Source: Rhodothermales bacterium (GTDB lineage: Bacteria > Bacteroidota > Rhodothermia > Rhodothermales > JABDKH01). From it: a DNA stretch of 38,458 bases. This document shows positions 10,188-35,961 of the stretch, piece by piece. The position numbers were made by a program, and so were the translations under genes. Below the pieces are notes generated by a model. It had not been told where the DNA came from. It worked only from the letters and a program-made list of their open reading frames with translations, and made no database searches. The first letter of the stretch is position 1. Every line of letters starts with the position of its first letter. Where the stretch lies: NCBI GenBank assembly GCA_013002345.1, contig JABDKH010000141.1, positions 1 to 38,458 on the forward strand. The letters are read 5' to 3'.

Positions 10188-10204
10188 CCTAATTGATTCA
10201 GCGC

Positions 10205-13200
10205 ATGACTGCGAAGACGTCAATCTTGACAAAACTCATTGCCCTGGCCCTGGTGTCCATCCTGCTCTCACCGACCGTGAGTGCCCAGGAAAATAGAACA
10301 AGGCAACGCGGATGGAACGTCCAGGAAGTATCCCGGTGGTTCGATTCCCAGGCGGCTCGCGGATCCACGAGCGCACAATATGCCGACTGTCCTGACTTCA
10401 CGTCCCGCCGGGATGTGATCATGAACGGTAACCGGATCCGGACTCAGATCCAGAATTTTGGATCGATTTCATCGCCCGGCAACCGGATTACGGACATTGT
10501 CTGGAACGACCTGGGCTACGGGTATGAGTTCGGTCCCTTCGTAGCTGCGGAGATCGTCGACGAAGGCCGGCAGGACCCGAAGAGTGTCGAACTACTTGAC
10601 GAACAGGGTAATCCCGTTCTGGACGACAGCGGCAATCCGATCTACGTCATGCACATCGTCTCGGACGGACTGACATCGAATGGTGGCGAGACCGCACCCG
10701 ACGGCCGTGAGTGGTGGGGCTGGCAGCCCATCCCGTGCGCTCTACCCGTCGGCGGGTTCGAGGGTATTGAAGTCGTCAACCCGGATTCTGACCTGATTCC
10801 AACCAGTGACGCCGAGGACCTGCCGCCCAGGGATGGGAAGCCCGATTCGTGGCCGGACTCCTGGTACAACGAAAACTTGCAGCAGTATGTCTGGCCTGGC
10901 GCACTCCAACAGGGCGCCTCCAACGCCGACAAGGAACTGCTGTACTTCATGAATGACTACTCGAATCGGGAGTTTGTGTATGAGCCGTTCGAGAACGACA
11001 CGACCCGGAAGGGACTCGGACTGGAAGTTGAGACCCGCATCTACCAGTGGGCGAATCCTCTGGCTGAAGACGTCATGTTCCTGATCTACAAGATCACAAA
11101 CAAGAGTGACAAGGATCTCGAGAAGGTCATCTTCGGCATGTGGGGAGATCCTCACGTCGGTGGTCCAAGTGACTGGGCGGACGACTGGGCGTTCTTCGAT
11201 CGTGATCGAAACCTCGTATATGCCTGGGATGACGACGGACGATCGGATCTTCCGGGTGTAGTGCCTGGCTACTTCGGTTACAAATTTCTTGAGAGCCCGG
11301 GCGTCGGGACCGAAATCCTGAATGGCGTCCTGGTCCCCGGAGACGGAATCGACAATGATGGAGACGGCCTCATTGACGAATCGTGGACGGACGGGATCGA
11401 TAACGATGGTGACTGGGAGGTAGAGAACGACGACGTGGGAGTGGATGGGCGACCGGGCACCGGTGACGAGGGAGAGGGCGATGGGGTGCCGACCGCCGGC
11501 GATCAATTCGACATCACGAAGCCCGGCGAGCCGGATTTTGAATTCACGGACATCGACGAGAGCGATCAGATCGGACTGACGTCTTTTGCGTCGCCGCCAT
11601 TTGCCGGATATCGGATTTCGAACGACGAACTTGTCTGGCAGACCATTCAGCCGGGCCGATTCGATGTTGTGCCTACCGAACCCGGAGACTACGTGTTTCT
11701 GTATGGTTCAGGGTCCTTCAGCCTTCTCGCCGGACAGACGAAGCGATTCTCGATCGCCCTGATCGTCGGCGACAACCTCGAAGATCTCTTTCTCAATGCA
11801 GAGACCGCCCAACAGATCTACGACGTCGGCTATCGTTTCGCACGGCCACCGGACAAACCACAACTCACGGTTGTCCCCGGCGACGAGAAGGTCACACTCT
11901 ACTGGGGCAGTGTATCGGAAGAATCTGAAGATCCGTTGTCGCGTGAGAAGGACTTTGAGGGGTACGTCGTTTACCGTTCTACAAATCCCGAGTTCAGTGA
12001 CCTCCAGACCATCACGGACATCAACGGGTCCAGATTCCTGTTCAGGCCGCTTACTACTTCGAGAGGTGTTGAGGCCAAGTTTGATCTTGACAATGGCCTG
12101 AAAGGGCCATCTCCGATTCCTTTCCCAAGACGAGGCGTTTCCTTCGACCTCGGCGACGATACCGGCATCGTTCATTCCTTCGTCGACTCGAACAATGTGA
12201 TCAATGGACAGACGTACTACTACGCGGTAACGGCGTATGACCGCGGGTTCAGCGGTGGCGACGAAGGAAGTCTGCAGGGTGGCATCCCGCCCTCTGAGAC
12301 GAGCAAGACCATCACGTACGATCCCACAACCGACAAGTACATCTTTGACGTCAATACGGCGCGGGTCATTCCGGGACCTCGAGTAGCCGGGTATGTTGCG
12401 CCGTCAATCGCGGCGGCGGGTGGGTTGATTCACGAGACGGGCAACGGCACGGGCGTGATCAACATCGAAGTGGTCGATGAGTTTGCCATTCCAGATGGCG
12501 GCCAGTATCGCCTGGACTTCGACAAACTCGACGGCCAGACCGTCTACTCCGTGGTAGACGAAGTCATCAAGGAAGCGTGGTTTGTACCCAAGCCCGGCAA
12601 AGGAGTCAGCGTTCTTTACCCGAACATCATCCCGTCGTCGTTCAGTCTGAGGACCGTCGACGGAACGGCTCTGCAAGAAGGTGTTGACTTCACCCTCAAC
12701 GCCGAGGGTGGGTCCGTGGTGGTCGTTGAGGGTAGCGCCAGTGCAAATGCTGACTCGTTGCTCGCGATGTTCCAGTACCGGCCGATAGCTGACAGCGACC
12801 TGTTGGATCTTGAGGAAGCCAACCCAATCTGGGAGGGGCTTCACGTCTCCGTTCTTGATCAGCCACTCGCGCTTGATACACTCCAGATCGGCTGGACAAC
12901 AGGTGGCGGCGGGGTCGGATTCGAAGTCCGCACCGCGACATCAGGTCCGGGACGAATCCCGCAACCATCTGACTACGAAATCACTTTCGGAGGTACGACA
13001 ACCTCGATCGTAACCGGACTGGAACTCCCGTTCACAATCGTGAACCTGACACGCGCCAACGAACAGATTGAGGCCTTCACGCCGGATCTAAACAATAACG
13101 GTGTCTGGGACCTGAGTGAACAGGTAATCTTCGTCGAGACGCTCGACGGCCGCCAGACCGCGACGTGGCAGGTGAAATTCATTGACGAGGGCGGCTTCCC

Positions 13201-13630
13201 GTCCGACGGCGATGTCTTCTATGTTCGCACGACCAAGCCATTTACGGACGACGATTCGTTCACCTTCGCCACATCCGCGGCGACCGTAGATGCGGATGTC
13301 GTCAAAGAGCAACTGCGCGACATTTACGTCGTGCCCAATCCATACGTGGCGGCAAACGAGATTGAACCTCGCAACCCCGTATCACGCTCCGAGCGTGGCG
13401 ATCGCCGATTGTACTTCGCCAATCTGCCTCGCGAGTGTACGATTCGGATATACACGATCGCCGGAGAGCTTGTCGATACGATCCAGCACAGCGGAACGCT
13501 GGACAACGGCAAAGCCTTCTGGGATCTGCGAACGAAGGACAACATGAACATCGCGTACGGGCTCTACATCTTCCATGTAGATGCGGGCGATGACGGATCA
13601 TTCATCGGCAAGTTTGCAGTCATCAAGTAG
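10205..13630 (+). CDS. Large secreted protein with T9SS-type C-terminal domain
   Basis: A 1141-residue exported protein of unknown function. ATG 10205 is preferred over TTG 10193 four codons upstream; it begins a signal peptide ending in TVSAQ (about residue 27). Residues about 379-437 form an Asp/Gly-rich, thrombospondin-3-like calcium-binding stretch (DGIDNDGDGLIDE, repeated as DGIDNDGDWEVE). A fibronectin type III-like region lies at about 549-680 (VVPGDEKVTLYWGSV, GYVVYRSTNPEF, YYYAVTAYDRG). The last ~100 residues, starting VVPNPYVAANE and containing RIYTIAGELV and AYGLYIFHVDAG, resemble a T9SS/FlgD-like sorting domain. The gene starts 17 bp after the TonB receptor stop and ends exactly at the PorV-like gene, so it is almost certainly in the same operon. 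It may be the surface partner of the receptor. Confidence 0.85.
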   Translation: MTAKTSILTKLIALALVSILLSPTVSAQENRTRQRGWNVQEVSRWFDSQAARGSTSAQYADCPDFTSRRDVIMNGNRIRTQIQNFGSISSPGNRITDIVWNDLGYGYEFGPFVAAEIVDEGRQDPKSVELLDEQGNPVLDDSGNPIYVMHIVSDGLTSNGGETAPDGREWWGWQPIPCALPVGGFEGIEVVNPDSDLIPTSDAEDLPPRDGKPDSWPDSWYNENLQQYVWPGALQQGASNADKELLYFMNDYSNREFVYEPFENDTTRKGLGLEVETRIYQWANPLAEDVMFLIYKITNKSDKDLEKVIFGMWGDPHVGGPSDWADDWAFFDRDRNLVYAWDDDGRSDLPGVVPGYFGYKFLESPGVGTEILNGVLVPGDGIDNDGDGLIDESWTDGIDNDGDWEVENDDVGVDGRPGTGDEGEGDGVPTAGDQFDITKPGEPDFEFTDIDESDQIGLTSFASPPFAGYRISNDELVWQTIQPGRFDVVPTEPGDYVFLYGSGSFSLLAGQTKRFSIALIVGDNLEDLFLNAETAQQIYDVGYRFARPPDKPQLTVVPGDEKVTLYWGSVSEESEDPLSREKDFEGYVVYRSTNPEFSDLQTITDINGSRFLFRPLTTSRGVEAKFDLDNGLKGPSPIPFPRRGVSFDLGDDTGIVHSFVDSNNVINGQTYYYAVTAYDRGFSGGDEGSLQGGIPPSETSKTITYDPTTDKYIFDVNTARVIPGPRVAGYVAPSIAAAGGLIHETGNGTGVINIEVVDEFAIPDGGQYRLDFDKLDGQTVYSVVDEVIKEAWFVPKPGKGVSVLYPNIIPSSFSLRTVDGTALQEGVDFTLNAEGGSVVVVEGSASANADSLLAMFQYRPIADSDLLDLEEANPIWEGLHVSVLDQPLALDTLQIGWTTGGGGVGFEVRTATSGPGRIPQPSDYEITFGGTTTSIVTGLELPFTIVNLTRANEQIEAFTPDLNNNGVWDLSEQVIFVETLDGRQTATWQVKFIDEGGFPSDGDVFYVRTTKPFTDDDSFTFATSAATVDADVVKEQLRDIYVVPNPYVAANEIEPRNPVSRSERGDRRLYFANLPRECTIRIYTIAGELVDTIQHSGTLDNGKAFWDLRTKDNMNIAYGLYIFHVDAGDDGSFIGKFAVIK

Positions 13631-13636
13631 GTGGCC

Positions 13637-14719
13637 ATGCACAACCAGCATACGACTATCGGTACAAGAACCGTGGAACGAATTTCTACTCTGGTACTCG
13701 CCTTGATGCTCGTGGCCGGATCCGCAGCAGCACAGGCGGATAACCCCGGCGGTGAGACTATCACCAAAGTCGGCACAACCTCGGCGCAGTTTCTGAAGAT
13801 TGGTGTTGGCTCCCGGGCCATCGCACTGGGAGGCGCCTATGTAGCAGAGGCAAACGATCTGTCGGCGCTGTACTGGAACCCGGCAGGCCTGACGCGCATG
13901 CGCGGAAGTGCCGTGCAGTTCGCATATACGGACTATCTGGCCGACGTCCAGTACAACTTCGCGGCTGTAGGTACGAATCTCGGGACTCTGGGAAGTGTAG
14001 CCGCTTCGATCATATTCCTCGACTCCGGAGACATGACGGTGCGGACCATATCGAGACCCGATCCGGATGTCGCCACGGCGGAGCGCTTTTCCGTGCAGGA
14101 CCTCGCGATGCAGTTGTCGTACGCCAAAGCGCTCACCGACCGCTTCTCCATTGGCACCACCGTCAAGTATGTCCGGGAAAAGATCTGGAATAGCTCCGCA
14201 TCCAGCATGGCGTTCGACATTGGACTTGTCTTCACGACACCCTTCGAGGCGCTTCGCCTCGGCGCGAGCATGTCAAACTTCGGACCGAAGATGCAGATGA
14301 GCGGGCGTGACATTCTGTTCAGTGATGATCCGGATGCCGTCCAGAGCGGAAATGTCGAAGTTGTCAACGCAGAGTTCCTGACGGACGAGTTCTCGCTTCC
14401 ATTGATATTCAGAATCGGACTGGCCTGGGACGCGGTCGCGACGGCCAACCACCGGATCGTTCTGCTCACGGATGCGGCTCACCCGAATGACAACAGCGAA
14501 TACCTCAATGTCGGCGGTGAATACTCCTTCCGCGATCTGATTTTCTTCCGCGCCGGTATGCGGAATCTGTTCGAAGAGGATGGCGAACAGGGCCTCACAT
14601 TCGGGGGCGGACTGAATCTGCGTATCGACCGGGCACTACGCGTCCGGGTCGATTACGCATACGCGGACTTCGGACGTCTCGAACAGACCCACTGGTTCAC
14701 GCTCGACCTTTCGTTCTAG
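13637..14719 (+). CDS. PorV/PorQ family outer-membrane protein
   Basis: A 360-residue outer-membrane beta-barrel of the PorV/PorQ (UPF0164) family. Residues 1-33 form a signal peptide (LVAGSAAAQA). The family hallmark follows: GVGSRAIALGGAYVAEANDLSALYWNPAGL, here split as GVGSRAIALGGAY and ALYWNPAGLTRMRG. The C-terminus ends in a barrel strand with a terminal phenylalanine (HWFTLDLSF). PorV is the T9SS shuttle that collects cargo from the translocon and delivers it to the attachment complex; many Bacteroidota carry paralogues of unproven role. GTG 13631 directly abuts the upstream stop and could also be the start; ATG 13637 is listed. Its place between two sorting-domain proteins suggests it handles those cargos, which is an inference. 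Confidence 0.85.
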   Translation: MHNQHTTIGTRTVERISTLVLALMLVAGSAAAQADNPGGETITKVGTTSAQFLKIGVGSRAIALGGAYVAEANDLSALYWNPAGLTRMRGSAVQFAYTDYLADVQYNFAAVGTNLGTLGSVAASIIFLDSGDMTVRTISRPDPDVATAERFSVQDLAMQLSYAKALTDRFSIGTTVKYVREKIWNSSASSMAFDIGLVFTTPFEALRLGASMSNFGPKMQMSGRDILFSDDPDAVQSGNVEVVNAEFLTDEFSLPLIFRIGLAWDAVATANHRIVLLTDAAHPNDNSEYLNVGGEYSFRDLIFFRAGMRNLFEEDGEQGLTFGGGLNLRIDRALRVRVDYAYADFGRLEQTHWFTLDLSF

Positions 14720-14731
14720 CCGGGAACCACA

Positions 14732-16171
14732 TTGGACACCCGCCCAACAGCCTATCGGAATCGTATCAGTCAGGCGGTGGGTGCCTTCATCCTGCTGGCT
14801 CTTCTGGTCTTTGGTCCCGCGACACAATCCGCGGCCCAGCTGCTGGATGACATCGTTGATGCCCGCGTGTCGATGGCAAAAGTCGTGACTACGCCAATGG
14901 GCAAGGCCACGTTTGTCGAGACACAAACGGATCCCGTGTCCTTCGAGTACAACGGTGTCGCATTCAGCGCGCGGACAAACGCCGGCGTAGTAGAAGGCTG
15001 GGCTCGCTTCCTGACCGACACCGGCTGGACGGAGTGGATCGAAATGCACATCGTGTATTCGGCTACTGGTGGAACGGTGATGGGTGGCGTCCGGGGAGAC
15101 GCGGTTAGGGCGGGTCCCTACGCACTGCGATTCAGCATCGATTCCGGGATGACGCTCCGCATCACAGGCACCGGCGTTTTTGACACGCGCAAGGACGTCG
15201 ACGGGCAGCCGGCATCCCACTCCGACTCCGAAGAGACCTCGGGCTCGTTCGGAGAACTGGCCGTCGATCCCCCGCCGCTGATCACGAGGACAGAATGGTC
15301 GGCCGACCCGTTCATCGGGACGCCCGTGCCACTCGCCGATCCGTCATACAACTACATGACGTTTCATCACGCCGCCGGGTTTTCGGCCACAAGTCGTGAA
15401 GACGGGCTTGCCCAGGTCAAGGCAATCCAGGACCTGCACCAGAACGTCCGAGGATGGAGCGACATCGGTTACCAGTTTGTGATTGACCGCGGAGGTCGCA
15501 TCTACCAGGGCCGCCCGTTCCTTGATGGCAGCACGTCTCTCGGCGAACTCCCACGACTCGCAATGGGAGCACACGTAGGTGGCGCAAACACAGGCAACAT
15601 CGGCATCTGCCTTCTCGGTTGCTACCATCCATCCGAAGGCTCGTTCTGCACGGAAACGATTACGACGGAAGCCTACGACACGTACGTCCGGACCTTCGCT
15701 TTTCTCAGCGAAAACTATGGAGTAGACCCGGCGCTGATCCGTGGACACCGCGATTTTAGTAGCACGGCATGCCCCGGCGATAACAACTATCGCCTGTTAT
15801 GCAGCGGACCAGTGCGCGACACCGGCTGCACGGGACCGCAACTCCGTGTCGACGTCCAGAACCTGATCTCAACAGGCATCGTTCGGCCGGACGATCTTAC
15901 GCTTTCCCAGAACTTTCCCAACCCCTTCGCCGACGCAACCGCGATTGACTACTACCTCAAGGAGGACGGGGTGGTAACGCTCAAAGTCTACGATTCGGTA
16001 GGTCGCGAAATCAACACTCTTGCCGACGGATTCCAGGACGGAGAGCGGTGGTATAACGTCACGTTCGACGGTGGGAAAGTGGCCGCCGGAACCTACTTCG
16101 TTCGTCTGGAAGTTCTCGGGATCGGTAACAAGAAATCGAGTCGTACAGCGACGATGACGGTCGCCAGATAG
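14732..16171 (+). CDS. PGRP-type N-acetylmuramoyl-L-alanine amidase with T9SS sorting domain
   Basis: A 479-residue exported enzyme. The start is TTG 14732, since no ATG precedes the signal peptide (residues about 11-36, ending QSAAQ). Residues about 40-155 form a beta-rich domain of unknown type. An Amidase_2/PGRP domain spans about 183-360: it opens RTEWSADPF and shows the zinc ligands H212 (FHHAAG), H339 (RGHRDF) and C347 (TACPGD), plus Y247. It should cleave the amide between MurNAc and L-alanine. Extra cysteines (C293, C297, C306, C357, C366) suggest disulfides outside the cytoplasm. Residues about 388-479 are a T9SS sorting domain (LSQNFPNPFADATAIDYYL, KVYDSVGREINTL, AAGTYFVRLEV). It starts 12 bp after the PorV-like gene and ends the operon. 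Export beyond the outer membrane points to target walls outside the cell, which is inferred. Confidence 0.9.
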   Translation: MDTRPTAYRNRISQAVGAFILLALLVFGPATQSAAQLLDDIVDARVSMAKVVTTPMGKATFVETQTDPVSFEYNGVAFSARTNAGVVEGWARFLTDTGWTEWIEMHIVYSATGGTVMGGVRGDAVRAGPYALRFSIDSGMTLRITGTGVFDTRKDVDGQPASHSDSEETSGSFGELAVDPPPLITRTEWSADPFIGTPVPLADPSYNYMTFHHAAGFSATSREDGLAQVKAIQDLHQNVRGWSDIGYQFVIDRGGRIYQGRPFLDGSTSLGELPRLAMGAHVGGANTGNIGICLLGCYHPSEGSFCTETITTEAYDTYVRTFAFLSENYGVDPALIRGHRDFSSTACPGDNNYRLLCSGPVRDTGCTGPQLRVDVQNLISTGIVRPDDLTLSQNFPNPFADATAIDYYLKEDGVVTLKVYDSVGREINTLADGFQDGERWYNVTFDGGKVAAGTYFVRLEVLGIGNKKSSRTATMTVAR

Positions 16172-29648: not shown

Positions 29649-30461
29649 TCATTGATAACGTTCCAGCGAGAACTTCTCCCCGAGGTACCGCTTCCGTACC
29701 TCCGGATCCGCAGCCAGCGACTCAGCCGATCCCTGTTTCAGAACCCGGCCTTCGTAGAGCAGGTACGCGCGATCGGTGATCGCGAGCGTCTCGTGCACAT
29801 TGTGATCCGTTATCAGGACCCCTATTCCGCGGTGCTTCAGGCCCGCGACGATCTCCTGGATGTCCTCAACCGCGATCGGGTCCACTCCGGCAAACGGCTC
29901 GTCCAGAAGAAAAAACTTGGGTCGCGTAACCATGGCGCGGGCGATCTCCGTTCGACGTCGCTCACCTCCGGACAGGGTGTATCCTTTGGAGTCCCTCACC
30001 TTTTCGAGTCTGAACTCAGAGATAAGCTCGTCGACGCGATCCTTGCGCGTCTGACGCGTCAGCTTCTGGTATTCGAGCACCGCGTTGAGATTGTCTTCCA
30101 CGCTCAGATGCGTAAAGATGGACGCCTCCTGCGCAAGATACCCGATGCCCCGCCGCGCCCTCTTGTACATAGGCAGGTTCGTGATATCCTCGCCATCCAG
30201 CAGTATCCGACCACCGTTCGGTCGCACGAGGCCGACAATCATGTAGAACGTCGTCGTCTTCCCTGCACCATTTGGTCCAAGAAGACCAACGATTTCTCCC
30301 TGCCGCACGGACAGGCTCACCGCGTCGACGACCACCTTCCGTTTGTACTTCTTCGTGACACCGGCAGCGACGAGTTCGATCCCGGGGTCAGCGTCGGCGA
30401 GCGTTTCCTGAGCTTCTTTCGGCAGAAGGTCGCCGGGGTAGTAAAGTCTGGGATCTGTCAT
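29649..30461 (-). CDS. lptB: LPS export ABC transporter ATP-binding protein LptB
   Basis: A 270-residue ABC ATPase that powers LPS extraction from the inner membrane with LptFG. Walker [10 protein letters not shown] (62-70), Q-loop region [19 protein letters not shown] (the Q and IF pattern is typical of LptB), signature LSGGERRR at 163-170, and Walker [14 protein letters not shown] (183-195, catalytic E188). About 30 residues precede the ABC fold, which is longer than in E. coli LptB (about 240 residues). LptFG are not in the window. It lies 124 bp after the OstA-like gene and before tyrS. Confidence 0.95.
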
Positions 30462-30585
30462 GACTTTAGGAAGTGATCACGCCGCATTCCGGCGACTTCC
30501 CGATGTTTCGTAATGGGCCGCCTCAACATACGACGTTCACCCGCTCAAGAGAAACCGGGCCAGCGGGACATCGCGCCCGATCCCG

Positions 30586-32448
30586 TTACATGTCTGGTGA
30601 AATGGCCAGAATCCAGCTATCCGCGGGGACAGCGCCGCTGAGGCGTCGCAAGGCCTGATTTGCCGCCGACCGATTTGCGAAGGCTCCGACACACACCCGG
30701 TAAGCGAACCTGCTGTCTACAAGCGCTTTGAGGATGTCAACCGGATACTCTGAGAGATCGATTCCAGACGCTGTCGAGCGGGCAATGTCGAGGGCCTCCT
30801 TGACCGAAGATCGAGACGCCACGACAATTGTATAGCCGCGTCGCGATGTGTCAATCGTTCCAGGAACCCACTGACTCTTAACAACAGATATCGGCGGCTC
30901 CGGCGCTACGTCCGTCGCCGGAGGTTCGTCGACTGCAGGTACGATCTCTGGCACGGTCGGCGTACGGTTACGGTCGGCGAGTGAAGATGCCGTCGGGATA
31001 TCCTCAACCTGAAGGCGTGGATTTGCGAGCAGAGCCTCGCGATCCGGCCGCCGCTCAGGTACCCACCGGAACCCTGCGAGCTCCATGTCCGCCGGTAACA
31101 ACTCCTCCGGATAGTACGTCCCTTCCACCCCGTCCTCGACACGGATCCTCTTCAGGTCGTCGTCCTGAAGCTCGAAAACAATTCGGTCGGCTGATGTCCG
31201 AACCGCTCCATCCGGTCTGTTGTCCTTCCGCAGGTAGTAGATCGATTCGGCATTCGGACCCACAATCATCTCCCTGCGACCGCCCTCGAAGAAGAGGCCC
31301 AGGAGATTCCGGCCACTCACCTGATGAATACGGTCGAGCACGCTGTCTCGGTCGGCGAGTATGGTGTTCTCCTGGACCCTGAGGGTATCGATCGAGCCGT
31401 CCGTCGAATCGATGATCAAGCTGTCTCCGCTCACCTGCGAGGTACCAAACCATGCGATCGGATTTCCGAAGATTTCGATCGTCTCGCGGCGTACAGACAA
31501 CAGATTGTCGCTTCGGGATGAAACGGAATCCCCAACGGCAGACGTCTCCGGATTCCAGATCAACACACTCCCCGCCGCTGACATAGACTCCGTCGAATCG
31601 GTCCTGGTCGACTCCAGCGCGTCGCTGCTGATGAGCAACGTGTCTGTCTCCGTGGAATCGTGCCGAACCTGAAACAACAACACGTTCTCCCTGATACGGC
31701 GGACGCCGGCCGGATCGTCCGTGAAAGCCCAGTCGCCGACGACAATAGTTACGGATGTCGTATCGATATCCGGCCCCGTACCATCGGTCTCATACGATTC
31801 CACGTAGACATTTCCGGAGGCAATCGACACCTCAGTTTCGCGAAGGTAGGTTAGCGAGTCGGCACGCACGTCGGTATCATCCCCATCGAGCACGACGCTC
31901 CCCGCAAATTCCGCACGCTTCCGCTCCGACCAGTAGGTGCCCGTGCGACTGGTCAACACAGAAGCGCTGTCCACGAGCGAAACGCCGTCGTTAAACGTAG
32001 TGCGTTTTTCGGATGTGTAATATGTTGCTGACGGCGCAGTCACCCTCACCTCCCCGTCCGTCAGCCTAACGTTTCCGGTGGCCCGACCGACTTTGGTGAC
32101 GCGATCATAAAGAACTGCATCGGAGCGCAACGTATCTCCGCGCTCGAAGATCAGCACGTTGCCCTCGAAGAGAATCTCGTTACGATTCGTGTACTGCGTG
32201 GCGCGGTCGGCCAGAAGCACCGTAAGGTCCTGATTGAGCCGAACATCCCCGATCAACATCCGGACGGGCTCACCGTCAATCTCACGGCCCGTCGCAAAGC
32301 TCGCACTCAGTTCGACACGCTTCGCCTCCCGATCCCCTTCGTCCTGAGCGAATGCCGTGGGTGCCGAGATCATCTGAAATAGCAGGATGACGCTCGCGAC
32401 GCTCCCGATTCCTCGTCCTCCAGGGTAGTTCAGCCTATTCGTCGACAT
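30586..32448 (-). CDS. OstA/LptA-like LPS transport protein with C-terminal SPOR domain
   Basis: A 620-residue periplasmic protein. Signal peptide at about 1-34 (MISAPTAFAQ). Residues about 45-480 contain OstA/LptA-type beta-jellyroll repeats, with recurring strands such as LFEGNVLIFERGDTLRSDAV, VRLTDGEVRVTAPSATYY and VEDGVEGTYYPEELLP, as in the OstA-like proteins of Bacteroidota. A Pro-rich linker follows, then a SPOR-like domain at 536-620 (RRGYTIVVASRSSVKEAL and AYRVCVGAFANRSAANQAL). SPOR domains bind denuded septal peptidoglycan. Its start overlaps the lptC end by 14 nt, so the two are co-translated. It should carry LPS across the periplasm; the SPOR part suggests attachment to the wall. 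Confidence 0.85.
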   Translation of the reverse strand: MSTNRLNYPGGRGIGSVASVILLFQMISAPTAFAQDEGDREAKRVELSASFATGREIDGEPVRMLIGDVRLNQDLTVLLADRATQYTNRNEILFEGNVLIFERGDTLRSDAVLYDRVTKVGRATGNVRLTDGEVRVTAPSATYYTSEKRTTFNDGVSLVDSASVLTSRTGTYWSERKRAEFAGSVVLDGDDTDVRADSLTYLRETEVSIASGNVYVESYETDGTGPDIDTTSVTIVVGDWAFTDDPAGVRRIRENVLLFQVRHDSTETDTLLISSDALESTRTDSTESMSAAGSVLIWNPETSAVGDSVSSRSDNLLSVRRETIEIFGNPIAWFGTSQVSGDSLIIDSTDGSIDTLRVQENTILADRDSVLDRIHQVSGRNLLGLFFEGGRREMIVGPNAESIYYLRKDNRPDGAVRTSADRIVFELQDDDLKRIRVEDGVEGTYYPEELLPADMELAGFRWVPERRPDREALLANPRLQVEDIPTASSLADRNRTPTVPEIVPAVDEPPATDVAPEPPISVVKSQWVPGTIDTSRRGYTIVVASRSSVKEALDIARSTASGIDLSEYPVDILKALVDSRFAYRVCVGAFANRSAANQALRRLSGAVPADSWILAISPDM

Positions 32449-33025
32449 ATACCTGACCGGTCACGCTCGCTAGACTGTATGACGACAAGTTCTCGGTGGC
32501 CTCGAGTTCATACCCCTGAATGTTCTCATCGGGCGTGTAGATGCGTGCAAATCCTGGAGCCCGAATCATGTCCGACTCCTCATCCCAGTTGAGGTGTTCC
32601 GTCTCCAACCGCTTGCCGGACTCCGCCAGCACGACGACTGCACCGTAGGCTTCGAAGCGTCGACTCTGCTCCACATAACGTATTTCATCGGCAGTCACCG
32701 TGGACGACTTCCGACCATCGTCATCGAACACGGTTGCGACAACCCTTTCGGCTTCTGTGGCAGACAACACCGTGAGTGTGCTGTCTTTGTAGTCATATTG
32801 GCGAGTATATGGCGCCGTAATCACAACAAGCGGTACGGCCTCTTCACTCACGTAGAACTCGGTACCCCAACTCTCATGGGCTGGCTGTTCGGCAAGATCC
32901 GCTTCCCGGGGCGCAGTCATCTCCGGGCTCCGACGTTCACATCCCGACAGTGTCGCAAACAGAACGGCCGCGAGGATAGCAGATCCCCGCAACGACGCCA
33001 TGGTATGTTCGGTCCGCTCTAACAT
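32435..33025 (-). CDS. lptC: LPS export protein LptC, lipoprotein form
   Basis: A 196-residue protein. ATG 33025 is chosen because AGAGGAGA lies just before it; the open frame runs further up but overlaps the previous gene. The N-terminus is a lipoprotein signal (VLFATLSGC, Cys29), rather than the single helix anchor of E. coli LptC. Residues about 60-190 show the LptC jellyroll: DYKDSTLTVLSATEAERV, SSTVTADEIRYVEQSRRFEAYGAV, then LETEHLNWDEESDMI. It hands LPS from LptB2FG to the OstA-like bridge encoded next. Starts within the last 7 nt of the B3/4 gene and ends inside the OstA-like gene. Confidence 0.9.
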   Translation of the reverse strand: MLERTEHTMASLRGSAILAAVLFATLSGCERRSPEMTAPREADLAEQPAHESWGTEFYVSEEAVPLVVITAPYTRQYDYKDSTLTVLSATEAERVVATVFDDDGRKSSTVTADEIRYVEQSRRFEAYGAVVVLAESGKRLETEHLNWDEESDMIRAPGFARIYTPDENIQGYELEATENLSSYSLASVTGQVYVDE

Positions 33026-33732
33026 GATCTCCTCTCGCCGGGGCAGACGACGGTGACAGCCGTGACCGCATCGTCGTCGGAACGTCCGAGCCATTCGGCG
33101 AATTCATCGCAAGCATTCCGGACAACGGACTCGTCCAGACTTGCAGGCGCGTATATACTCGCCGCGACGTCGGTCGTCGACGGGCTCGTTTTCGTCGCCA
33201 TGCTATCCTTGATCGGGTTCACGATGGGGATTCCATTCTCGTCATCCGCGCCACGAACCGCACAGCCTACCACCAGGTCACAAAGGCCGATCTCCTGTCC
33301 GGCGGTGTTGAAGACATAATCCTCTCCGGGCAGCCCCAGGCGAAACACGAAAACTTCTGCGCTCGCCGCATCAAGATCCCAGATCGAAATCGGCAGAATG
33401 TATTTGAGGCTGATGAAATTGCAGATATCGACCGGCCAGTTTACGCGCGGGAAGGAATCGGGTTGGCTCGCAGCTCGCAGCAAGTATTCGCTGGCAGGTT
33501 TGCCGCGTCCGGTAGGTTTGTAGGTCCCGTTCCGAAGCATGTTTCGAGATTCGGCTCGTACGTTTTCGAGCTCGCCAGTGACACCGTCCGCGCGTTCCGA
33601 GATCAGGTCAGACAGTGAGTCGTCAAACATATCGTCCTGATATCCGGTCACGATACCGCGCGCGCGGACGATACCGAGTACGACCCGATCGACGCGATTG
33701 TGAACGACTATTTCTGTTGATGCATCAGTCAC
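33019..33732 (-). CDS. Freestanding B3/B4 (PheT-like) domain protein
   Basis: A 237-residue protein, start GTG 33732 with AGAAGG about 8 nt before it. The centre resembles the B3/B4 editing domain of the phenylalanyl-tRNA synthetase beta subunit: NWPVDICNFISLKYILPIS followed by WDLDAAS aligns with its VVDxTNYV...hafDlDk region, and GEDYVFNTAGQEIGLCDLVV plus GCAVRG with its substrate-pocket strand region. In PheT this domain hydrolyses Tyr-tRNA-Phe. COG3382-like freestanding versions exist; their function is not settled, so trans-editing is an inference. It heads the lptC operon: lptC begins inside its last 7 nt. Confidence 0.82.
   Translation of the reverse strand: MTDASTEIVVHNRVDRVVLGIVRARGIVTGYQDDMFDDSLSDLISERADGVTGELENVRAESRNMLRNGTYKPTGRGKPASEYLLRAASQPDSFPRVNWPVDICNFISLKYILPISIWDLDAASAEVFVFRLGLPGEDYVFNTAGQEIGLCDLVVGCAVRGADDENGIPIVNPIKDSMATKTSPSTTDVAASIYAPASLDESVVRNACDEFAEWLGRSDDDAVTAVTVVCPGERRSC
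33028..33035 (-). promoter_or_regulatory. Ribosome binding site of lptC inside the upstream gene
   Basis: Reads AGAGGAGA on the minus strand, just before ATG 33025 and within the end of the B3/4 gene. It fixes the lptC start and implies translational coupling. Confidence 0.75.
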
Positions 33733-33960: not shown

Positions 33961-34314
33961 ATGCAAGTCACAACCATGAGTTTCACGGTGGAGCCCTGCA
34001 ATCAGGAGACTGTTATTGTACGGATCGGCAAGGCGCTCGATTTCCGGAATGCCGCCGAGTTCAAGTCGACCTGTCAGACGCAGGTACGTTCCGGAGCCCG
34101 CAACTTCATTCTGGATTTCTCAGAGACGGGAATTCTGGATTCGACAGGGCTCGGATCGATTTTCTCCCTTTATCGCCAGGTTTCTCCGCTGGAAGGCCAG
34201 GTGGTCTTTGCGGCGGTATCACGGCCGGTACAGGTCGTCGTCCAGCTTACACGCACCTACAAGGTATTCAGACAGTTCCCGTCCGTCGAGGCTGCCGAAG
34301 AAGCCCTGTTGTAA
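33961..34314 (+). CDS. STAS-domain anti-sigma factor antagonist
   Basis: A 117-residue single STAS domain, like SpoIIAA/RsbV. The conserved phosphorylation region is FILDFSETGILDSTGLGSI, with Ser61 as the predicted target of the cognate kinase. Final helix and strand segments (VVVQLTRTYKVFRQF, SVEAAEEAL) are typical. When unphosphorylated such proteins bind the anti-sigma kinase and release its partner. ATG 33961 is listed; ATG 33976 is an alternative. First of three same-strand genes that form a complete partner-switching set with the ATPase and phosphatase that follow. Confidence 0.9.
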   Translation: MQVTTMSFTVEPCNQETVIVRIGKALDFRNAAEFKSTCQTQVRSGARNFILDFSETGILDSTGLGSIFSLYRQVSPLEGQVVFAAVSRPVQVVVQLTRTYKVFRQFPSVEAAEEALL

Positions 34315-34375
34315 AAGGTCCCTGAGTTCGCCACCACTACCCACCCGATGACCCTGTCACGACGTTGACGGCGTT

Positions 34376-34828
34376 ATGGAATCTGTAAAACAACGGTTTT
34401 GCGAACTGAGCACTCTCGTAGCGGGTGTGCATCAGATCTTTGACCAGCTTTGCGGTGATAGTGGTGGGTACGCGTGCCTGGACGAGGACACGTTTTACCG
34501 GGCGAAGCTTGCCGCCCACGAATGGGCGGCAAATCTCGTTCAGCATGCGTCCTTCGACAACCGGAAGCCGGAAGTCGACGTGGATGTGTGGCCGAACGGT
34601 AACAAGATCGAGTGCGTGTTTGAAGACAACTCGGATGGTTTCGACCTCGACTCCATCCTCGAGCAGCGGTCTAACGGACTCAGCCCCCTGCCGGAGCGCG
34701 GTATGGGCCTGCTCATGTTGAGTGCCTGCACGTCGGAACTCTCCTACGAAAAAACGGAAGGCGGTATCTACCGTCTTCGCTTCTCCGTCCATTCCGAAGC
34801 GGATCCATGGCTGAACATTCCATTCTAG
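34376..34828 (+). CDS. RsbW-like anti-sigma ATPase/kinase
   Basis: A 150-residue GHKL ATPase of the HATPase_c_2 (RsbW/SpoIIAB) type. The N-box is KLAAHEWAANLVQHA, with the conserved E and N; the G1 box is FEDNSDGFD; the G2-like loop is RGMGLLMLSACTSELSY. It would phosphorylate the STAS protein encoded upstream and bind a sigma factor or another effector. The start is ATG 34376, 61 bp after the STAS gene, without a clear ribosome site. Its last 22 nt overlap the next gene. Confidence 0.88.
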   Translation: MESVKQRFCELSTLVAGVHQIFDQLCGDSGGYACLDEDTFYRAKLAAHEWAANLVQHASFDNRKPEVDVDVWPNGNKIECVFEDNSDGFDLDSILEQRSNGLSPLPERGMGLLMLSACTSELSYEKTEGGIYRLRFSVHSEADPWLNIPF

Positions 34829-35961
34829 TCGTTGAAGACGAGCATACGCTTCGAAGGCTGTTGGAATACCGCCTCAGTAAGCTCTACGACGTCCGCACCG
34901 CGGCGAACGGAGAAGAAGCGCTCGAACAAATCGCGGAGAACATTCCTGACCTGATCATCTCGGATATCATGATGCCGAAGATGGACGGGTTCGCGTTACA
35001 AAGCGCCGTTCAGAGTCAGCACGAAACGAAGGCGATACCCTTCATCTTTCTTACGGCGAAGGCCGACGAGCAGAGCAGGCTGAAGGGGATGCGAACCGGT
35101 GTCGACGACTACATCACGAAGCCGTTCGACATTGAGCAATTGCTCATCCGCGTACAGAGACTTCTTGAACGGACGAAGATGTTTCAGACGCAGCTCGACG
35201 CAAAGATCGGGCAAGACTTCTCACAGCGTTTGATGCCGAAGAGCCTGCCCCAGGTACCGAACTACTCCGTCTTCTTCCATAACAACCCGAGGGAGCACGG
35301 CGGCGGCGACCTTTTCGACTGGATGGAAGCAGCGCCCGGAACATACTTTCTGACGATCGGCGACGTCATGGGCAAAGGATTGCAGGCCAAGTTCTATGCC
35401 TTCAGCTTCCTCGGCTACGTCCGCAGTACTATCCACGCCATGCTCCGGACGACACAATCTCCTGCGGAAATCATGACGCGTGTCAATCACGTATTGATGG
35501 ATGACCCGCCCATGCAGGAGACCTTCGCATCGCTGCTGCTCGTTCGATGGGAGCCGGAGGCGCATCGGCTGACGTATGCGAATGCCGGACACTGTCGGCC
35601 GTTGCTCATCACTCCAGATGGCCCGGAGATCGTCGAATACAGCGATATGATTCTGGGACTCGATCGCAACGCCGAGTTCAAGGATACCGAAGTCGAACTA
35701 CCCGCAGACTCTGCGCTCATCGCCTATACGGATGGATTGACTGAACAGGTTCTCCAGAGTGGACAGATCGCCGGAGAGCAGGGCATCGTTGATGCCTCGA
35801 TGAGAGCCTATGGCCGGGACGCCCCTATCGACGCGATGCTGGACGATGTTCTGAATCGCTCGGAAGAAGACGAATTCGGCGATGACATTCTGGTTCTCTG
35901 GCTTCAGCGCGAGCCGCTGGAAATTGACTGGTTCTCCCCTTTCGCTGCAGACGTGAAGTAG
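34807..35961 (+). CDS. Response regulator with SpoIIE-type PP2C phosphatase domain
   Basis: A 384-residue RsbU-like protein. The receiver domain (1-125) has the acidic pair E10/D11, the phospho-acceptor D53 (IISDIMMPKMDGF), T83 and K105 (DYITKPFD). A short helix (about 118-140) links to a PP2C/SpoIIE domain (150-372) with the metal aspartates in GGGDLFDW, TIGDVMGKG, AYTDGLTE and GDDILVLWL. It should dephosphorylate the STAS protein when the receiver is phosphorylated. The cognate histidine kinase is not in the window. Overlaps the RsbW-like gene by 22 nt, indicating coupled translation. Confidence 0.93.
   Translation: MAEHSILVVEDEHTLRRLLEYRLSKLYDVRTAANGEEALEQIAENIPDLIISDIMMPKMDGFALQSAVQSQHETKAIPFIFLTAKADEQSRLKGMRTGVDDYITKPFDIEQLLIRVQRLLERTKMFQTQLDAKIGQDFSQRLMPKSLPQVPNYSVFFHNNPREHGGGDLFDWMEAAPGTYFLTIGDVMGKGLQAKFYAFSFLGYVRSTIHAMLRTTQSPAEIMTRVNHVLMDDPPMQETFASLLLVRWEPEAHRLTYANAGHCRPLLITPDGPEIVEYSDMILGLDRNAEFKDTEVELPADSALIAYTDGLTEQVLQSGQIAGEQGIVDASMRAYGRDAPIDAMLDDVLNRSEEDEFGDDILVLWLQREPLEIDWFSPFAADVK

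Follow-up and report, generated by a model that had tools for sequence, protein, structure and literature searches.

The closest described systems to the locus reported here are, on one side, the LptA/OstA-like bridges of lipopolysaccharide (LPS) export (Pfam PF13100 OstA_2 and PF03968 LptD_N; E. coli LptA, 2r1a; P. aeruginosa LptH, 4uu4) and, on the other, the SPOR proteins FtsN, DamX, DedD and RlpA, in which the SPOR domain is joined to a transmembrane (TM) anchor or to a wall enzyme. Well-studied SPOR domains recognise denuded glycan, in which the septum is enriched (PMC6895207). The residues with which they contact the glycan include a conserved Gln on strand β1 (Q270 in RlpA, Q351 in DamX) and a conserved Phe (F274 in RlpA) (PMC6895207). 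The same paper, citing earlier work, gives DamX Q351 as key for septal localisation (PMC6895207). In the SPOR domain of RlpA, Gln270 and an arginine patch touch the glycan by their side chains, whereas the remaining contacts come mostly from the main chain (PMC6895207).

The window (the whole stretch of 38,458 nucleotides that was analysed, from a Rhodothermales bacterium) carries a gene in which these two kinds of protein are joined in a single unbroken reading frame with an ATG start (Table 1). Its product shares with the described bridges a β-jellyroll, a signal-peptide-like start, the lptC-lptA-lptB gene order and the status of sole copy, and with the SPOR proteins the Pfam match, the predicted β-α-β-β-α-β order and a C-terminal place behind a flexible linker. 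It differs from the former in that its jellyroll spans about 430 residues in one chain, whereas the matched LptA and LptH structures have 130-175, and in that, among the OstA proteins examined, a linker and SPOR domain occur only here and in the OstA protein of Rhodothermia bacterium isolate HDS-18; from the latter it differs in that an LPS-transport protein takes the place of the TM anchor or wall enzyme. We read this fusion of an Lpt bridge to SPOR as a new domain architecture within a known system. In line with the preliminary description, which knew of no such fusion, we found no description of the pairing in open PubMed Central papers, a scope outside which most subscription journals lie.

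Table 1. Features of the fusion gene and of its flanking lpt genes (positions in the window).
Feature	Position	Strand	Evidence
lptC (LPS export periplasmic anchor)	32435..33094	-	directly upstream, overlapping fusion gene; TIGR04409 46.6 bits (cut-off 38)
Fusion gene: LPS bridge of LptA/OstA-like type, SPOR domain at the C-terminus	30586..32448	-	620-aa ORF; Pfam OstA_2, LptD_N, LptC-like, SPOR; fusion also in L072/G003
Signal-peptide-like start, residues 1-34	32347..32448	-	by eye, hydrophobic core up to ...PTAFA|Q; AlphaFold2 helix 16-27
OstA/LptA β-jellyroll, residues ~45-480	31009..32316	-	AlphaFold2, Foldseek, ortholog across order
Pro-rich flexible linker, residues ~481-530	30859..31008	-	AlphaFold2 low pLDDT; longer in L072
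SPOR-family domain, residues ~531-618	30595..30858	-	Pfam SPOR, leave-out profile, identity with L072
lptB (LPS export ATPase)	29649..30461	-	downstream of fusion gene; TIGR04406 366.9 bits (cut-off 240)

That the N-terminal part (some 430 residues) is of OstA/LptA type, as the preliminary description had it, is borne out by a Pfam OstA_2 match at residues 59-197 (74 bits, E 1.4e-20; gathering cut-off 21.2), by weaker LptD_N and LptC-like matches in the same region, by an AlphaFold2 model built from 29 sequences in which the jellyroll has pLDDT values mostly above 90, and by Foldseek matches of that jellyroll to LptD, LptA and LptC in the PDB (E down to 2e-9). With 32.0 bits against TIGR03002, the NCBIfam equivalog for LptA with a cut-off of 71.7, the protein is not filed as a TIGR03002 LptA. 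The Pro-rich linker claimed to precede the tail was likewise found, pLDDT falling below 50 across most of residues 495-544 and disorder being predicted at about 495-540, and the domain boundaries proposed earlier proved correct to within a few residues. The signal-peptide-like start, read by eye, suggests that the protein is secreted.

The fusion gene lies between lptC and lptB, in an lptC-lptA-lptB order that is maintained across the order Rhodothermales. Family searches of the genome, an assembly of 381 contigs that is 97% complete, found LptD (LptD_2), two LptF/G proteins and one Amidase_3, the kind of enzyme that produces denuded glycan, and the fusion protein as the sole OstA_2 and sole LptD_N protein, a sole-copy status that rests on these family searches at that completeness. 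As the other Lpt parts are present and no further OstA_2 or LptD_N protein was found, the searches leave no candidate for the periplasmic bridge other than the fusion protein, which we propose plays the LptA role in the Lpt export machine. At the same locus, a B3/4-lptC-lptA-lptB-tyrS cluster (29649-33732, minus strand) diverges from a STAS / HATPase / response-regulator-SpoIIE trio (33961-35961, plus strand), an arrangement retained at many Rhodothermales loci. Elsewhere in the window (10193-16171, plus strand) a 1145-aa protein that matches no Pfam family precedes a PorV-like and an Amidase_2 protein.

For the tail, the Pfam check proposed beforehand returned a SPOR (PF05036) match, so that the refuting outcome of no SPOR match did not occur: at residues 537-604 the whole protein reaches 21.0 bits, which equals the gathering cut-off (21), and the isolated tail exceeds it with 26.3 bits (E 9.6e-6). 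Because the whole-protein score sits exactly at the cut-off, the match was put to further profile and shuffle tests. A profile built from SPOR domains of Rhodothermales and E. coli but from neither fusion tail, and in which Rhodothermales tails that themselves match Pfam SPOR predominate, gave the fusion protein 83.8 bits at residues 532-617, the best of 2000 tail shuffles reaching 8.1 bits, which rules out a chance SPOR-like pattern. In the AlphaFold2 model residues 540-615 follow the β-α-β-β-α-β order of SPOR domains, albeit at a low confidence (pLDDT about 43-62), so that the structural prediction asked of the tail delivers the order of elements but not a confident fold; predicting the tail from two sequences gave a poor model (pLDDT 49.5). 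A sequence search of the PDB with the tail profile gave chance matches only, which is weak evidence against SPOR given that SPOR domains share less than 20% identity (PMC6895207). To our minds, homology of the tail to the SPOR family is secure on these profile comparisons, and a genuine joining of an LPS-bridge (LptA/OstA) fold to a SPOR-family domain is supported.

An OstA ortholog is present in at least 112 of the 114 genomes of the order; the fusion, among the matches listed, is found in two only, namely the window genome (G000) and its nearest relative HDS-18 (G003; locus L072, JAHHLP010000601.1), where it again sits between lptC and lptB. The places of tail matches and OstA matches were compared by eye, and C-termini were read directly for about 75 orthologs of the order; as to relatives among the genome contigs, a single-protein scan gave none and an alignment query 28. 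Orthologs from three genomes of the same family (G001, G002, G004) end soon after the jellyroll without a SPOR tail, and that of G005 is cut off by its contig. No SPOR domain was seen in any of 110 OstA loci scanned, of which 49 came from the order, 47 were distinct loci from other Bacteroidota and 14 were long loci fetched a second time. The proposed search of related genomes for the same architecture thus succeeds in the nearest relative, where the tail is conserved, and finds nothing in the rest of the order among the matches listed. As the G001, G002 and G004 orthologs can be read to their ends and lack the tail, members of the family can do without the fusion, which is a rare addition, specific to one lineage yet retained there, and no core feature of the order. 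Three OstA_2 proteins of other Bacteroidota carry C-terminal tails of their own of about 120-220 aa (L223 in G524, 802 aa; L226 in G319, 898 aa; L237 in G439, 723 aa), which are of low complexity or have an internal repeat and none of which is SPOR. In family f12, across several genera (G061-G077), the matches listed show an OstA insertion of roughly 75-130 aa near residues 309-322 of P0001.

The fragmented assembly and the whole-protein Pfam score at the very cut-off might have pointed to an artefact, be it a chimeric contig or a chance pattern. Since HDS-18 was deposited separately and shows the same fusion between the same two genes, a chimeric assembly is ruled out, and with the wide gap between profile and shuffle scores reported above we regard an artefact as scarcely conceivable. 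A less drastic alternative holds that the copied domain is close to neutral, a harmless extension in this lineage with little function, and is favoured by the small number of carriers among the matches listed and by the tail-less relatives. Comparison of the two fusions speaks against it, however. Both genomes keep the reading frame open, and while the jellyrolls are 56% identical and the linkers, the longer being that of HDS-18, have diverged to 26% with indels, the tails share 39% identity without a gap across 90 aa. The tail shows a pN of 0.46 against a pS of 0.77, the latter being saturated, so that no dN/dS is claimed. Higher conservation of the tail than of the linker is, as far as an alignment of two proteins can tell, what one would expect of a folded domain that hangs on a free tether, and the neutral alternative seems to us improbable.

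As for the origin of the tail, its nearest other SPOR tails (33-43% identity) belong to TM-helix proteins with a C-terminal SPOR domain, several of which have an HU-like N-terminal domain with weak Pfam matches only (PF18175 HU-CCDC81_bac_2, PF00216 Bac_DNA_binding). One such HU-like/TM/SPOR protein is encoded in the window genome (C178), and counterparts occur in G001, G002 (C259), G004 and G005 of the same family. Both fusion tails and these tails have in common a first strand of GYTIVV type and, at the C-terminal end, W-[IV]-L-x-I, and compared with C178 and C259 the fusion has an Lpt bridge in place of the HU-like domain and TM helix. On this resemblance, a resident HU-like/TM/SPOR protein was the likely donor, with its SPOR end copied onto lptA. 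We discarded the idea that the OstA gene lost its stop codon and ran into a SPOR gene beside it, as among the matches listed no relative has SPOR beside its OstA gene (judged by eye). Since the OstA proteins of the window genome and HDS-18 are sisters in the OstA tree (99% SH-aLRT), a single gain in their common ancestor would be the simplest reading; trees of the tails, at 89 columns too short, leave one versus two fusions and the donor undecided, and a topology that forces the two fusion tails together fits no significantly worse (p-AU 0.35).

What the tail may bind is less straightforward. In an alignment with FtsN, DamX, DedD and RlpA both fusion tails have Val at the conserved Gln and Arg at the conserved Phe, and so lack the glycan-contacting pair of the studied domains. 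They share this with the group of SPOR tails to which they belong, where the Gln column holds Gln in none of 43 and the Phe column Phe in 3 of 43; Gln-less tails of this group are found across Rhodothermales (for example L004, L013, L016, L046 and L060). These changes weaken the case for glycan binding, and binding of denuded glycan by the tail cannot be assumed from its family membership. Given that the contacts of the RlpA domain are mostly main-chain, glycan binding is nonetheless possible, and by analogy the tail may bind through main-chain contacts together with its own arginines. A SPOR fold that no longer binds glycan and contacts a protein instead, for example LptD or, by like-with-like pairing, an HU-like/TM/SPOR protein, would fit the lack of Gln throughout the group and the fact that the group's tails stand at the end of membrane proteins, several of which have an HU-like domain; as the sequence indicates no particular partner, we think such a switch rather unlikely. 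Alternatively, the tail could serve as a general peptidoglycan anchor that binds the wall anywhere (or at strand ends), does no more than hold the bridge in its path through the mesh and is not directed to the septum. The altered residues are ones linked to denuded-glycan recognition, and one report places an Acinetobacter SPOR protein at both periphery and septum (PMC11975115). As well-studied SPOR domains prefer denuded glycan, in which the septum is enriched, we deem such a general anchor unlikely too, albeit deserving of some weight.

We therefore favour, at a probability of roughly 0.45 for the explanation as a whole, a scenario in which the fusion protein would be the periplasmic bridge of the Lpt machine, onto whose C-terminus a copied SPOR end was attached, through a disordered linker, in an ancestor shared by the window genome and HDS-18. 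The jellyroll would pass LPS from LptC toward LptD. In E. coli LptA the C-terminal end faces LptD, and an analogous orientation here would turn the end of the jellyroll toward LptD and bring the tail close to both outer membrane and peptidoglycan. In that place the tail would most likely tether the protein to glycan strands and so hold or concentrate LPS bridges at sites of peptidoglycan processing, plausibly the constriction site. Such a wall tether would be of use, since LPS is inserted at the division site in E. coli (PMC11898776) and in Brucella (PMC9938171), where the insertion sites are set by the inner-membrane Lpt complex (PMC9938171). Peptidoglycan tethering, general or septal, thus appears the likeliest role of the tail; its specificity for the septum, and with it recruitment of bridges there, we put at below even odds.

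That a single natural protein should physically link an LPS-export bridge to peptidoglycan, possibly septal glycan, is an idea that we hold tentatively and consider somewhat more doubtful than not. If true, outer-membrane assembly would be spatially coupled to cell-wall remodelling in these bacteria. An Lpt bridge with a wall-binding-type domain of its own would offer a test case for how the Lpt machine is placed relative to the wall, and the fusion also bears on whether the Gln-less SPOR group of Rhodothermales binds glycan.
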